Origin: a virus
Virus record (IMG/VR): IMGVR_UViG_3300043464_002139
Span: 1 to 20,918 of that record
Strand: one strand, 5' to 3'
DNA: 20,918 bases
Part shown: positions 2,890 through 13,420 of the stretch, piece after piece
Numbering within the stretch: the first letter of the stretch is position 1
Layout of the letters: every line of letters starts with the position of its first letter
Notes under the pieces: model-generated
What the model saw: only the letters and a program-made list of their open reading frames with translations
Told to the model about the DNA's origin: nothing
Databases searched by the model: none
Program-made: the position numbers and the translations under genes

Positions 2890-5800
2890 TTGGCAAACCA
2901 GACCGTAACTACCACAGTCAATTACGACAGCGCCGCGATAAACGGGCTGCTTGACGGCGAGAGCATCACGATCAACGGCGGGTCGCTCACGTTCAATGCT
3001 GACACGCGCTGGAACCAGCAGGCGGCGGTTTTTGGCAACATCCCGGTGTCATCGACGCTCGGTGGCGTGGTTGCGATTGATGGCACCCAGGTATGGGAAG
3101 TGCCGTTTAGCGCATCGACTGGCAACGTACCGACTCAGGCTGCGCTTGGCGGCAATGGCGTCACAGGCGGCACCAGCGGGGCCGCAGGCGAGCTTACGCG
3201 GGTGTGGGCAAGCGGATCGTTCACACCTGCCACGGCGGGCGGCGCGATGCCTGCGGCGGGGTTCATCAAGCTGCGGTCCAAAACTGGAAACTTTCAATCA
3301 GGCGAAACCATCACCTTGCCGGGTGGGGCAACTATCACCACTGCCAACGCGGGCAAGCGAAGCTGGATTCATGTTGTTGGGGCAAGCGGTTCAACAATGA
3401 CCACGCCCCGCATGGCGAACGTCTCAGCTACAGGGGATTGGTACGTAATCGGTGAAACTGACGGCTCTGACAATCAGGCATTACAGATGCCTGTGCGCGA
3501 CGAATTTCCCGCCTTGCAGGTTGAGACTGCGCCGGGATCGGGCGTTTATGAGTGGTGGGCCAATGCGGCTGACGCTTGGAATGGCCTATACCCCAGCACA
3601 GACTTGGCATCAGGGAATACGAACACAACCTTGACGAGAAACGCAAACGCCGGCCCTCCAAATTATCCAGCGGCGGAACGTGTGCGGGAGACTGCGGCAA
3701 ACGGCGTTCACTCGTGGAACGGCCAGAACCTGCAAGCTACACAGATGGACGGAGGGTCATATACACACCGCGCCATCGTCAAGCAGGAAACGCGCCAGTG
3801 GTGCGTGGTGCAGATTTCCACGAATGGCGGAGCTACCCGTTTTGGCGCACTGGTGGATCTGGTTGCCGGCACGATTCTAGCAACCCCAACCGTGGGGAGC
3901 CCGACTGGCACCGCATCCTCGATTACTTCGCTGGGTGGAGGTTGGTATGAAGTCAGTGTCACGCTCGATCATATCAACAACACCATCCTGACAAGCTTTG
4001 TTGCCCTGTCGGATTCCGCCACCCCGACCTATTCAAGCGGGTTGCCAACCTATACCGGCAACGTGGCACAGGGTATGTATGTGGGGTTCTGGACTGTCGT
4101 TCAAAACAGCCACGCCTTCATCCCGACCGACGTGCGCGGCAAGTTTTTCTACTCAGACCCTTTTGCTGGGACCATACAACTTGCCAAGCGCGGGGCTAAC
4201 AATGCAGGCTTCAAGCCCGCCTCTGGTTTGAAAATCAGAATCCCGAACGTAATTCTCGGGACTTCAACGGCGGCAGATTACACCGCTCAATATGTTTCGT
4301 ATCAGGCGCGGTACGGTGTGAATATCTCGGGGGGTGTGTTCAATCAAGATACTGTCGCTTTTGGTTGGCAGTTGACAAACGTAACTCCCATCACGTTCAC
4401 CCTCAAGAACTCAGCTTTTGCAAATACTCTGTCCATCTTAAACTTCTATATTGAAATTCGAAATTCGTGTATCGCGCCGATTCTTTACCAAAATGGTGGC
4501 GGATTGTCGCTTCAAAACAGCGCGAATTTATTTCTATATGACTCTAGGATTGTGCGGGCATCTGGTCCTGCTTTCGCCACTGTAGCTTCAGCAAATATCA
4601 ATGCGTATGATTCCAGATTTGAGCAGATCAAGCAGGGGGGGCAGGGCCGGTCACAGAGAACCGCTGCTTTTGGGCAGAATCCTATTCTGGTAGCGGTGGT
4701 GTCGTCTGGCGGCGAATTTGTGGATTGCACGCTTGTCGGCGGAGCGGCCAACTTCAATGTGCAGAATTTTGATATTCGGAACCCGACGCATTGCGACAAC
4801 ATGACGGGCACTACACCTGCTATTACTTCTCGTGCAATCGGTGTGCAAGGCACGAATATCTTGGTTGACGGGATGGCCGCCCTGCCAGGGATAGACAATA
4901 ATCACCCATTCAGTGAGTGGGTGGCCACTTTCGGTTTCACCGCCGATCTCACCGTTCGGAACATTGGCTCTCCCGCCGCGCCGCTGAACGCGGGCACCAT
5001 CAACCCTACCGGACACATTGTCTCGATTGGCGCGGCAGGAACAACCTTCGAGGTGCGGCGGTGCTACGCGGTTAATTTGCGGGTGGGCGTTATTCAACAA
5101 ACTAATTCTGCCCCGGTTTTTGCCGCCTATGATGTCTGGGGCGATGGCGCTACACCGCAAACCATAGCGACGGCAAACGCCATTTCGCGCGGCGGTCGCT
5201 GGACCAACCAGCGTGTAGGTCAATCGGGCAACGCAGGCTCGCATTGGGACGATGCGTATAATTCGACCACTACAGGTCGCGTCACGATTATGGCTAACGA
5301 ACCGACGCTGGCATCAGCAGCGCAGTGTTCAACCACACTCGGTACTGGTTCCGGCTTCAACGGCAGTGGCTCGATGATTATTTCACGCCTGGATGACATG
5401 GTGAACTGGACCACGCCGCTTAAAATGTATGGTCACAACGCCCTCGCGGGTGGCTGCGCGCTTGCGGGAACAGACTGCCAAAACCTGATCTTTGAATATA
5501 AGATTGATACGGGATCGGGCTACGGCGCGTCCTGGGCGTTCCTCGCGAATACCGTGCGCCGGGCGAGCGGCGGTGTGTTGGGCGGCAACACGGTCACGGT
5601 CGGCACGGCGGATCGGACCGCCCTGACGCGCCAGCCCCAAGTCGGGGATTTCGTGCAGACAGGCCTGTTCAAGTTGCCAGCCAATACGACCGTCACCAAT
5701 GTCTCGGGCGATGTCATCACCTGCTCCAACAACTTCACGGCCAACCTTGCGACGAACGAGTTTGTCACCTTCTCCCCGGTCAACGTGGCAGTGACGGCGG

Positions 5801-11023: not shown

Positions 11024-12025
11024 ATGGCCTCGATCAACACTCAGCGTGGTCGGCTCTACCTGCTGGCCAGGTTGCCTAGGCGTGACGGGGCCCCAGGGCT
11101 GCAGCAATCCCGCATCGCCCTGAAGTTGGACGACACGCCGATCAACCGCCGCACCGCCTTGAAGCAGCTCCAGACACTGGAGCGGCAGCTCAGCACGGGG
11201 ACGTTTGAGTGGGGGTACTGGCTGGATCAGGCCTCGGGAGCGATCACCTGGCGCGAGGCCATCGCCAAGCTCTACCGGGCTCGGGTGGTTCTGGGCCGCA
11301 CGGGGGAATCAACCTGGCAGGTGAACTACCTCGGGCGCCTGCGGCAGGTTCCACAGGGGGGCGCCTGCACGACCGCCAGCATGGCCAAGGCCCTGGAGCG
11401 CTACGACCGCAACACGTGCTCCTACAAGGAACTGTTCTACCTCCTGCGGCACCTGTCGCGTTTGGTGGCGGTGCCGTTCCCAGAGGTGCCACTGCCCACC
11501 TACAGCCAAGCGGAGCTGGTGGCGGTGCCGTCCGATGCCGAGATCATCGAGTGGGTGGAGGGGGCCCCCGATCCGGTGCGCTGGTACTGGGGGTTGATGG
11601 CCACCTACGGGCTAAGGCCCCATGAGATCGAGGGGGCGGCGCTGATCGAGCAGGATTACTGCCAGGTGGCGGATGGGACCAAAACGGGTTTCAGAACAGT
11701 GGTGCCCCTGCCCCGCGAGTGGGTGGAGCGATTCGGGTTGCGGGATCGGCGCTTGCGACTTCGGCTGGAGGGCAGCGCTGATCGTCCCGATGCAACGTCC
11801 AAGTGGCTTAACAAAGAGCTTCGACGACAGGGATTAACGTGGCGTTGTTACTCTTTACGCCATGCTTTCGCTAGAAGACTGTGGGAGCGTGGCGGCTCAC
11901 GATTAGACATTTACACCGCTGCCAGGCTTATGGGGCACACTCCAGCGGTTCACGCTCGCACTTACCGTGCTCACATTCAGCCACATGCTGTAGCCGAAGC
12001 AGCTGAGCGAGCACTAATCGGCTAA
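11024..12025 (+). CDS. int: Tyrosine recombinase / phage integrase (333 aa)
   Basis: The ATG at 11024 starts ASINTQRGRLYLLARLPRR, a typical N-terminus for picocyanobacterial integrases; the frame is open back to 10928, but those residues look random and include the nested dyad. An N-terminal arm and core-binding region (about 1-165) precedes the catalytic domain. Arg198 lies in ATYGLRPHEIEGA, a lysine-bearing hairpin in DGTKTGFRTVVPL, Arg279 in YSLRHAFARR with Tyr in place of the usual first His, His305 in LMGHTPAV, and the nucleophile Tyr314 in HARTYRAH. It would catalyse integration and excision at att sites. From about 11800 codon use shifts to A/T-richer triplets, covering Arg279 to Tyr314. 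The 3' end overlaps the HNH gene on the other strand by 12 bp. Confidence 0.9.
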   Translation: MASINTQRGRLYLLARLPRRDGAPGLQQSRIALKLDDTPINRRTALKQLQTLERQLSTGTFEWGYWLDQASGAITWREAIAKLYRARVVLGRTGESTWQVNYLGRLRQVPQGGACTTASMAKALERYDRNTCSYKELFYLLRHLSRLVAVPFPEVPLPTYSQAELVAVPSDAEIIEWVEGAPDPVRWYWGLMATYGLRPHEIEGAALIEQDYCQVADGTKTGFRTVVPLPREWVERFGLRDRRLRLRLEGSADRPDATSKWLNKELRRQGLTWRCYSLRHAFARRLWERGGSRLDIYTAARLMGHTPAVHARTYRAHIQPHAVAEAAERALIG

Positions 12026-12661
12026 TAGCGAGGATTTTGATGTTTTAGGACGCTGAGCTGGTAAGAACAGATCTTGGTCGGAGCACCCTTGCCTCAACCG
12101 AGTATATAATGTGGTTGGCCGGATTCCGCTAAGCTCAGCAGCCTCAGCGATGCACACCTCCTTGCCCAGATATTTTACAAATGCGTTTGACCTGGTGTTC
12201 CTGCGTTGCTGCTTAATTGTCGCCCATCGGCAGTTACTGGGCTCGTAGTGACCATCAACATCAATCCTGTCAATGCTGTGGCGAGTACTTGGCCTTGGCC
12301 CCATGTCCCTGTAAAAGTTTTCAAAGCTGTTTAACCATTGAGTGCAAACAGTGATACCCCTGCCGCCATAGCATTCATAATGAGAATATTTAGGCTTATA
12401 GCATCGATGTTTCATGCCGGCCCATGCGCGGTATTCAGGAGAATTAGACATCCTGTGGGTGGCAAACTTAGCGCCGACGATTTCTTTATGAAGGCATCCA
12501 CAAGACTGTGTGTGCTTTCGTATCAACTTCCTCGCAAACACTTCCTTATTGTTTCCGCATTGGCACCGGCAGAGCCATTTGGATTGCCCCGACTTTTCAA
12601 TGCGGCTCAGTGCGGTCAAGCGTCCGAAAACTTGACCAGTCAGGTCTAGAGTCTTGGCCAT
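12014..12661 (-). CDS. Free-standing HNH-type homing endonuclease-like protein (215 aa)
   Basis: Three regions are visible. Residues 1-60 form a small cysteine-rich domain (GQVFGRLTALSRI ... WLCRCQCGN ... SCGCLHKE), probably zinc-binding. Residues about 70-150 carry the phage HNH-like core: YRAWAGMKHRCYKPK, YGGRGITVCTQWL, SFENFYRDMGPRPS, HSIDRIDVDGHYEPSNCRW. The C-terminus (about 160-205, YLGKEVCIAEAAELSGIRPTTLYTRL) is a helix-turn-helix like the NUMOD modules of homing enzymes. Such proteins bind and nick DNA and spread as selfish genes. It is low in GC, has its own leader with a possible promoter, and its last 12 bp overlap the integrase end in the opposite direction. Confidence 0.82.
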   Translation of the reverse strand: MAKTLDLTGQVFGRLTALSRIEKSGQSKWLCRCQCGNNKEVFARKLIRKHTQSCGCLHKEIVGAKFATHRMSNSPEYRAWAGMKHRCYKPKYSHYECYGGRGITVCTQWLNSFENFYRDMGPRPSTRHSIDRIDVDGHYEPSNCRWATIKQQRRNTRSNAFVKYLGKEVCIAEAAELSGIRPTTLYTRLRQGCSDQDLFLPAQRPKTSKSSLLAD

Positions 12662-12720
12662 CAGCTCATCTCAAGTGAGTTGGTCGCGGGTCAGGTGCTC
12701 GAACACGCTGGCCCACCCCT

Positions 12721-12729
12721 TTTATACCA
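12721..12729 (-). promoter_or_regulatory. Possible extended -10 promoter for the HNH gene
   Basis: In the 104-bp gap upstream of the HNH gene the minus strand carries TGGTATAAA, an extended -10 type element, about 60 bp before the ATG. No convincing -35 hexamer is seen. A private promoter would suit a mobile gene that joins an existing operon. Sequence match only. Confidence 0.3.
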
Positions 12730-12765
12730 TTGCCATCCCAGATAGCGGAAGCGGCGGAGAGGGCT

Positions 12766-13011
12766 CTAGGGGGTGGGTAAAACTGGAGGCTCCGGCAGCG
12801 GCTGCCAGTGAGTTGGCTCGTAATTGCGAGATTGAGTCTTTCCGTTCCAAATGGGAAACCAAATCTCCCAGAATGGCTTTGGTTTCTTGGCGTATTCGTC
12901 GTTATTGTACTTGCCGGGGGCCACTTTGATAGCAGGCCATGGCGCATTGGGTCGATACAGAATAATGATCTGATCTTTTGGCGCGGTTTCAATCGGTTGC
13001 CAGTAGCTCAT
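12766..13011 (-). CDS. DUF551-like small phage protein (81 aa)
   Basis: The protein has the DUF551 pattern: SYWQPIETAPKDQIIILYRP at the start and THWQPLPEPPVLPTP at the end, with PFWEIWFPIW and several tryptophans between. The family is common in phage early regions and its function is unknown. Length is typical. ATG 13011 overlaps the stop of the gene upstream by ATGA. Codon use is A/T-richer than that of genes upstream of 13210, like the next gene and the HNH gene, so these three may have arrived together. Confidence 0.75.
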   Translation of the reverse strand: MSYWQPIETAPKDQIIILYRPNAPWPAIKVAPGKYNNDEYAKKPKPFWEIWFPIWNGKTQSRNYEPTHWQPLPEPPVLPTP

Positions 13012-13208
13012 TGTTTTTCTTTGGTTAATGGTGTTTGCGGTTCTTGGGGAAGTTTAGCTTCAAGGGTTTCTATTAGCTTGTCTCGTCGATTGCAAAATTG
13101 AGTACGGTTGCCGTAATACCAGCCATCGCGTACAGATTCACGCAAGTGAGCAAGAATCATTGCAATGTCTTGATATTGCAGATCTATAGAAGTGCTGTGC
13201 TTGCTCAT
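13008..13208 (-). CDS. Hypothetical early protein (66 aa)
   Basis: A small, mainly helical protein: DLQYQDIAMILAHLRESVRDG, then YYGNRTQFCNRRDKLIETLEAKL, with a Gln/Pro/Thr/Lys tail. The start overlaps the HTH gene stop by ATGA and its stop overlaps the DUF551 start in the same way. No domain is recognised. The amphipathic helices and size would fit a small binding partner or inhibitor. It belongs to the lower-GC block that also holds the DUF551 and HNH genes. Confidence 0.6.
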   Translation of the reverse strand: MSKHSTSIDLQYQDIAMILAHLRESVRDGWYYGNRTQFCNRRDKLIETLEAKLPQEPQTPLTKEKQ

Positions 13209-13420
13209 GGCCCCGCTCCCGGCGCCACCGCCGCAACATTGACCCGAACGCAGCGCCTGCTGCTGGCCACGGGCGCCAGGTCGATCAGCTCCCTGCCCCA
13301 GCGCCAGCGGCTTTTGCGGTTGGCGTCGGCTTCGGCAACGAGGCGTTTGATGTGCCGATCGGAAACCCCGAGGGCTTCGGCAGCTTCCGCAACGGTGAGC
13401 AGCACGCGAGCGGCGGCCAT
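13205..13420 (-). CDS. Excisionase-like HTH protein (71 aa)
   Basis: Residues 7-35 (LLTVAEAAEALGVSDRHIKRLVAEA) form the helix-turn-helix seen in the AlpA/Xis/HTH_17 group of small DNA-binding proteins. Then come RWGRELIDL and RRCVRVNVAAVAP, resembling the wing and the 'xxRRIxxxDL' type ending of these proteins. Length matches excisionases. It lies in the early operon whose end converges on the integrase, so directing excision is plausible; a small transcription regulator is the alternative. The ATG is joined to the upstream gene by TGATG and the stop to the next gene by ATGA. Confidence 0.62.
   Translation of the reverse strand: MAAARVLLTVAEAAEALGVSDRHIKRLVAEADANRKSRWRWGRELIDLAPVASSRRCVRVNVAAVAPGAGP

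Follow-up and report, generated by a model that had tools for sequence, protein, structure and literature searches.

Introduction

In the yeasts Torulaspora and Lachancea, WHO elements encode an endonuclease that cuts FBA1, after which repair swaps the 3' end of this gene for a resistant version; the old 3' end is pushed past the endonuclease gene, where it serves as right-hand homology in later rounds (Coughlan et al., 2020; PMC7282813). In phages, intronless homing by free-standing endonucleases such as the Seg and Mob proteins of T4, accompanied by co-conversion, is established (PMC2988022; PMC6083498). Free-standing phage endonucleases are found inserted between conserved genes, cut one of these genes in insert-free genomes and take flanking DNA with them (PMC6083498; PMC2988022), and the boundaries of such exchange are described as well (PMC10448857).

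Here we describe a locus in virus record IMGVR_UViG_3300043464_002139. The window, that is, the whole stretch of DNA analysed, comprises 20,918 bases; its left side is a head-protein and lysis region, and the virus is a cyanobacterial one. The closest relatives of its integrase are found on virus contigs, and three further ones lie inside cyanobacterial metagenome-assembled genomes. An original prediction, made from the sequence, had proposed that homing of an HNH gene replaced the end of this integrase. The features considered below are the following (GC3, third-position GC).

11024–12025, plus strand: chimeric tyrosine recombinase (integrase), 333 aa; open reading frame with ATG start, PF00589 below cut-off, integrase matches phrog_1 and phrog_216
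11024–11790, plus strand: native 5' part of the integrase, codons 1–256, GC3 0.86; nucleotide identity to relatives, tree
11791–12025, plus strand: foreign (replaced) 3' part of the integrase, codons 257–333, GC3 0.44; identity, saturation, AU test
12014–12661, minus strand: free-standing HNH endonuclease gene, 215 aa; phrog_374, phrog_3377
12014–12025: convergent 12-bp overlap of integrase and HNH gene, the HNH stop being the complement of integrase codon L331 (CTA)
12731–12779, plus strand: relic of the native integrase 3' end; match to the L004 tail, tail-profile match, colinear flank
12766–13011, minus strand: older cargo gene, DUF551-like; open reading frame, weak PF04448 match, stop codon within the relic
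13205–13420, minus strand: small HTH gene (excisionase- or MerR-like); weak PF12728 match, the usual partner abutting the integrase

This arrangement resembles the WHO elements in several respects: the endonuclease gene lies behind its target gene, in some cases in opposite orientation; a diverged 3' end of the target has been swapped in, giving contradictory 5' and 3' trees; past the endonuclease gene, a piece of the old 3' end persists; and the newest unit is the closest to the target. The yeast elements, however, involve nuclear genes, meiotic homing and an intein-derived endonuclease with a zinc finger whose cleavage has been shown experimentally, whereas the window is that of a phage, with a putative HNH nuclease and a short relic (about 15 codons). 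The proteins are unrelated and the likeness is confined to the way of working; membership of the yeast WHO protein family (intein-derived, zinc finger, HO-related) was rejected for the window protein, which is an HNH protein of the phrog_374 type. The locus also shares with the T4 Seg and Mob systems a free-standing endonuclease gene between conserved phage genes and the co-conversion of flanking DNA, but in the passages on the T4 cases considered here the endonuclease gene is simply inserted and its flanks exchanged, with no retained relic of a native 3' end described there (PMC2988022). F-CphI of cyanophage S-PM2 is likewise a free-standing cyanophage homing endonuclease that cuts the adjoining gene in related phages; it differs in its Endo VII motif, in its target, psbA, and in achieving self-protection via an intron rather than a replacement 3' end (PMC6083498).

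Results

Composition and ancestry of the two integrase parts

The best change point of GC3 in the integrase gene fell at codon 251 (nt 11777), with values of 0.86 before and 0.44 after it. This step was equalled by none of 5000 shuffles, and its log-likelihood gain was 26.5, compared with at most 9.6 in the other large open reading frames tested in the window. The change of codon style that the original prediction had placed near 11800 is therefore confirmed, far above chance expectation. GC3 of the HNH gene ranges by block from 0.31 to 0.65. Within the integrase, the drop amounts to 0.42 in the window and to about 0.2 in the relatives that come next (L004, L005, L030 and L154); the step was lacking in all 46 HNH-free relatives measured, whose integrase 3' parts have a GC3 of 0.55–0.93.

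Sliding comparison and pairwise alignment placed a switch in homology at about nt 11790, codon 256. Three relatives (L004, L002 and L030) match the window at about 90% as far as CGTCCCGATGC, past which the match is abruptly lost. Against L030, L002, L003, L004 and L005, codons 1–251 show 91–95% nucleotide and 95–98% amino acid identity, whereas codons 252–333 show 63–68% and 78–83%, respectively (for L030, 95% nucleotide identity in the N part versus 63% in the C part); over the relatives as a whole, the foreign part shows 63–70% and 78–86%. NG86 estimates of dS show saturation of synonymous sites in the 3' part (at least 2.7, or undefined), against 0.17–0.23 in the 5' part for L030 and L002. 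In the maximum-likelihood tree of the 5' part, the window is sister to L030 with support of 99/90; in the tree of the 3' part, a clade of the two was rejected (AU p=0.009). The C-part trees obtained with FastTree and IQ-TREE both exclude the N-part sister and place the window either in a basal position (FastTree) or with L009 and L010 (IQ-TREE), an exact position that long-branch attraction may affect. Two outcomes had been named as speaking against the original prediction, a single tree for both integrase parts and a GC change present in HNH-free relatives; since the two trees conflict and HNH-free relatives lack the GC step, neither was found. As judged from these comparisons, the integrase is a recombinant rather than a gene with a gradient of composition.

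Residues R198, K220, R279, H305 and Y314 are present in the window integrase and invariant across relatives. Three of them (Arg279, His305 and Tyr314) are located in the foreign 3' part. Of 47 strongly conserved columns, a single one departs from the consensus there (P275C), a pattern that indicates strong protein constraint on this part. The hybrid integrase with a donor-derived catalytic box that had been anticipated is thus borne out, and the view that this segment has its origin in a different lineage and is physically linked with the HNH gene is supported. The further idea that the activity of the integrase might be altered found nothing in its favour, the catalytic residues being intact. 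Separately, in the relative L016 an in-frame stop (TAG, position 4397) occurs at integrase codon 188, representing either a pseudogene or a sequencing error.

The 3' end of the window is at roughly equal nucleotide distance from every sampled relative, and so its donor probably belonged to a branch of this integrase family that is missing from the sample and has A/T-richer codons. Searches of IMG/VR gave at best about 71% nucleotide identity for the 3' end and, for the HNH protein, only relatives of about 50% amino acid identity or less over most of its length. No close match to either was present among INPHARED phages. A plasmid search, conducted with the integrase only, returned best matches of 26–27% amino acid identity, and the best integrase match in 399 host-order genomes was 84%.

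The HNH gene and its product

The 12-bp overlap between the convergent HNH gene and the integrase (12014–12025) is as originally reported. Because the HNH stop codon sits inside the foreign integrase tail, at codon L331, the foreign end and the HNH gene would travel as one unit. The affected interval had been given as 11800–12661; the HNH gene is indeed convergent and ends in the integrase tail, but the right bound of the replaced tract is the relic, at about 12731.

By profile, the HNH protein belongs to the phrog_374 family (E 2.6e-74, residues 1–188), with a further match to phrog_3377 (E 6.6e-56). It comprises an N-terminal Cys-rich knuckle, a predicted beta-beta-alpha nuclease core and a C-terminal segment resembling a helix-turn-helix, and C33, C35, C54, R132, N143, C144 and W146 are invariant in 25 aligned sequences. 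The AlphaFold model has a mean pLDDT of 91.5, with strands at 128–132 and 144–148 and a helix at 149–154 predicted at high pLDDT. N143 of the HNH motif is thus invariant; the first His is not evident (SIDR), and for this reason nuclease activity is not certain. A PDB search with the protein gave no sequence match, and a fold search with the model returned nothing significant.

The HNH gene was absent from the records of 24 relatives, in a search whose sensitivity was confirmed on known carriers. The locus represents a presence/absence polymorphism, since the flanks on both sides are colinear with the HNH-free L004. A second copy of the window's own unit was not found.

A relic of the native integrase tail and the right flank

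Beyond the HNH gene, positions 12731–12779 read PSQIAEAAERALGGG-stop (P S Q I A E A A E R A L G G G stop). This relic matches the tail of the L004 integrase at 95% over 39 nt (E 3.7e-12), was recovered by an integrase tail profile (E 1.3e-4) and opens a stretch of 685 nt that is 96% colinear with L004. The DUF551-like gene of the window, 96–97% identical in nucleotides to its counterparts, immediately follows the integrase in L004 and L154. The relic, the L004-colinear flank and the DUF551-like gene together indicate that the HNH gene arrived, along with the foreign 3' end, between the native 5' part of the integrase and its native tail with the older cargo. The stop codon of the DUF551-like gene (12766–12768) lies within the relic, which offers a possible reason for the retention of the old tail.

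Whichever convergent gene adjoins the integrase, its stop codon is provided by the integrase tail, and many unrelated convergent partners terminate in ...PTP-stop, encoded antisense to this tail. Of 47 relatives, 32 have TTA or CTA at codon L331, although TTA accounts for only about 2% across the gene (bias seen in L002–L033 and L142–L199, and at 12014–12016 and 12766–12768 of the window). A DNA element was considered for this odd codon and rejected, since the convergent gene that overlaps here needs it for its own stop codon.

Related HNH genes in other phages

In Acinetobacter phages assigned to the genus Obolenskvirus, an HNH relative with 44.6% amino acid identity adjoins a MazG-like gene. 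A block of 753 nt (L239:2905–3657; also in L249, L254, L255 and L256), formed by the 3' end of the MazG-like gene, the HNH gene and a relic of the native MazG tail, is 99.6–100% identical across 11 records and two MazG bodies that are 36–86% alike. Indeed, when Ab59, Ab65 and Ab31 are compared with YMC-13-01-C62 (C62), identity is 36–86% in the MazG body but 99.6–100% over the last ~37 codons and onward through the complete HNH gene and tail. The MazG gene of the HNH-free A2.1 matches that of the carrier C62 at 88–95% before codon 41 and at 96–100% from there to a break at about codon 160, past which identity falls to 72% and 56%. The HNH C-terminus continues in frame into a native MazG-tail piece, FIKESDPYYAALVKSIEENYSA, which matches the HNH-free ...FIKESDPAYASVVKSIEENYSA. 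Gp40 of C62, a phrog_374-type protein of about 45% amino acid identity, thus shares with the window a replaced 3' end, an HNH gene and a native-tail relic, but is co-directional rather than convergent, has its relic fused to the HNH C-terminus and adjoins a MazG-like target. At the sequence level, then, Obolenskvirus has the three-part anatomy of the window on a different target, and its unit demonstrably occurs in two target-gene backgrounds.

Codons ~60–150 of the Obolenskvirus MazG-like gene show about 30–50% nucleotide identity between phages, between conserved ends, and this mosaic hot spot in the middle of the gene is also present without any HNH gene.

Members of the HNH family in phiAH14a (compared with PseuP_222) and in Staphylococcus V1SA15 (compared with 184DA, EW36 and EW7) are plain insertions that have not replaced the neighbour's end. 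Replaced ends were accordingly seen in two of the four HNH-family contexts examined, a number too small for a rate to be given. When 67 other HNH loci were screened blindly for repeated 3' ends at their flanks, sensitivity was too low, and even the known relic was missed.

The integrase-HTH junction as a cargo slot

The HTH gene lies only 2–10 bp from the integrase in many relatives, which represent the base state, and in others the junction holds varied inserted genes; it is a general cargo slot. Its contents in L004–L199 are many different small genes, DUF551-like ones among them, usually of lower GC than the flanks; the cargo of L026 is an apparent part of a cytosine methylase, and that of L118 is presumably a Mom-like gene. 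Stacked cargo without an endonuclease is seen in L122 (4250–4600), where two cargo genes, one of them DUF551-like, enclose an integrase-tail relic. In L132 (2512–2700), the relic lies beside 150 bp with a tRNA T-arm-like sequence, 11 bp past the integrase stop, which is perhaps an attachment site.

Ordinary phage mosaicism, in which homologous or short-homology recombination inside the integrase swaps the 3' end and the gene behind it, with the HNH gene as a passenger, is the main rival explanation, possible though less likely than homing. The slot itself holds many different genes, or none, and low GC is common among cargos (mostly 0.40–0.66). Moreover, HNH-free relatives also show mosaicism in the 3' third of the integrase, L003, L006 and L015 having a 3' end in common (100% of nucleotides) and not the 5' part; the relics of L122 and L132 adjoin non-endonuclease cargo and start at the codon boundary of the window relic; and the HNH genes of phiAH14a and Staphylococcus V1SA15 are plain insertions. 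Taken together, these observations mean that a general recombination route could suffice. Mosaicism alone, however, leaves unexplained why the Obolenskvirus HNH gene, replaced end and relic occur identically in two backgrounds, and the 3' end of the window shows the largest 5'/3' identity gaps of any integrase pair.

Site-specific insertion at codons 318–320 (CAC ATT CAG|CCG), at a site for a recombinase or nuclease, with elements bringing a replacement tail and the relic as the far junction, is very improbable. All three relics (window, L132 and L122) do start no more than 1 nt away from the Q319/P320 boundary, but the left break of the window is at codon 256, not 319, and neither a direct repeat nor an attachment site was found; a tRNA attachment site was rejected as the cause because the tRNA-like sequence is there in L132 only. 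Codons 317–320 read CAC ATT CAG CCG in relatives, with the three relics starting right after CAC ATT CAG, and I318 is ATT in 33 of 46 sequences while all other Ile positions are mostly ATC; these codons are a possible DNA-level site. An assembly or binning chimera of two phages is scarcely credible: neither junction of the unit was found on any other IMG/VR contig, but the left junction disrupts neither the reading frame nor the catalytic residues nor the 12-bp overlap, the relic and colinear right flank are biologically sensible, and related anatomy exists in complete isolate genomes.

Discussion

The best explanation of the locus, to which we assign a probability of roughly 0.6, is homing of a free-standing HNH gene that carries with it a replacement 3' end of the integrase; the WHO-like anatomy, together with the known behaviour of free-standing phage endonucleases, leads us to favour it. 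The mobile unit would extend from about 11790 to 12730 and combine the foreign integrase 3' end with the HNH gene, and the recipient locus would have resembled that of L004 or L154. We infer that cleavage by the HNH enzyme falls within the conserved 3' catalytic segment of the native integrase gene and drives the transfer. Repair would then copy the donor, with a left exchange within integrase codons ~250–256 and a right exchange at the integrase tail, at codon 319/320. The donor 3' end, having different codons, would presumably not be cut by the HNH enzyme, and since it provides a full-length 3' end, the recipient would retain a working integrase. Past the HNH gene, the old tail would persist as a relic, still of use to its older neighbour.

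The homing origin originally proposed is therefore partly supported. The joined unit, the native-tail relic and the parallel at the MazG-like locus speak for it, whereas cleavage by the HNH enzyme is a putative cause and the slot exchanges other cargos as well. The recurrence of the layout in unrelated viruses suggests that the HNH gene spreads by substituting a target end that its own enzyme presumably cannot cut.

We would give even odds to the broader proposition that phages carry their own WHO-type homing elements, made up of an HNH gene and a cleavage-resistant 3' end of the target, with the old end as a relic acting as right-hand recombination arm, and that these arose independently of the yeast elements and act on at least two unrelated targets (the integrase and the MazG-like gene). 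In Obolenskvirus, both carriers and HNH-free relatives are sequenced isolates, and the idea is directly testable in ordinary cultured phages. If true, it would account for some chimeric phage genes, including an integrase with a swappable catalytic end, and the elements would be akin to a gene drive with a recoded rescue copy. Use of the WHO-type trick by phages as well would make it a general answer to how an element can cut an essential gene and yet escape the loss that this would bring on itself.
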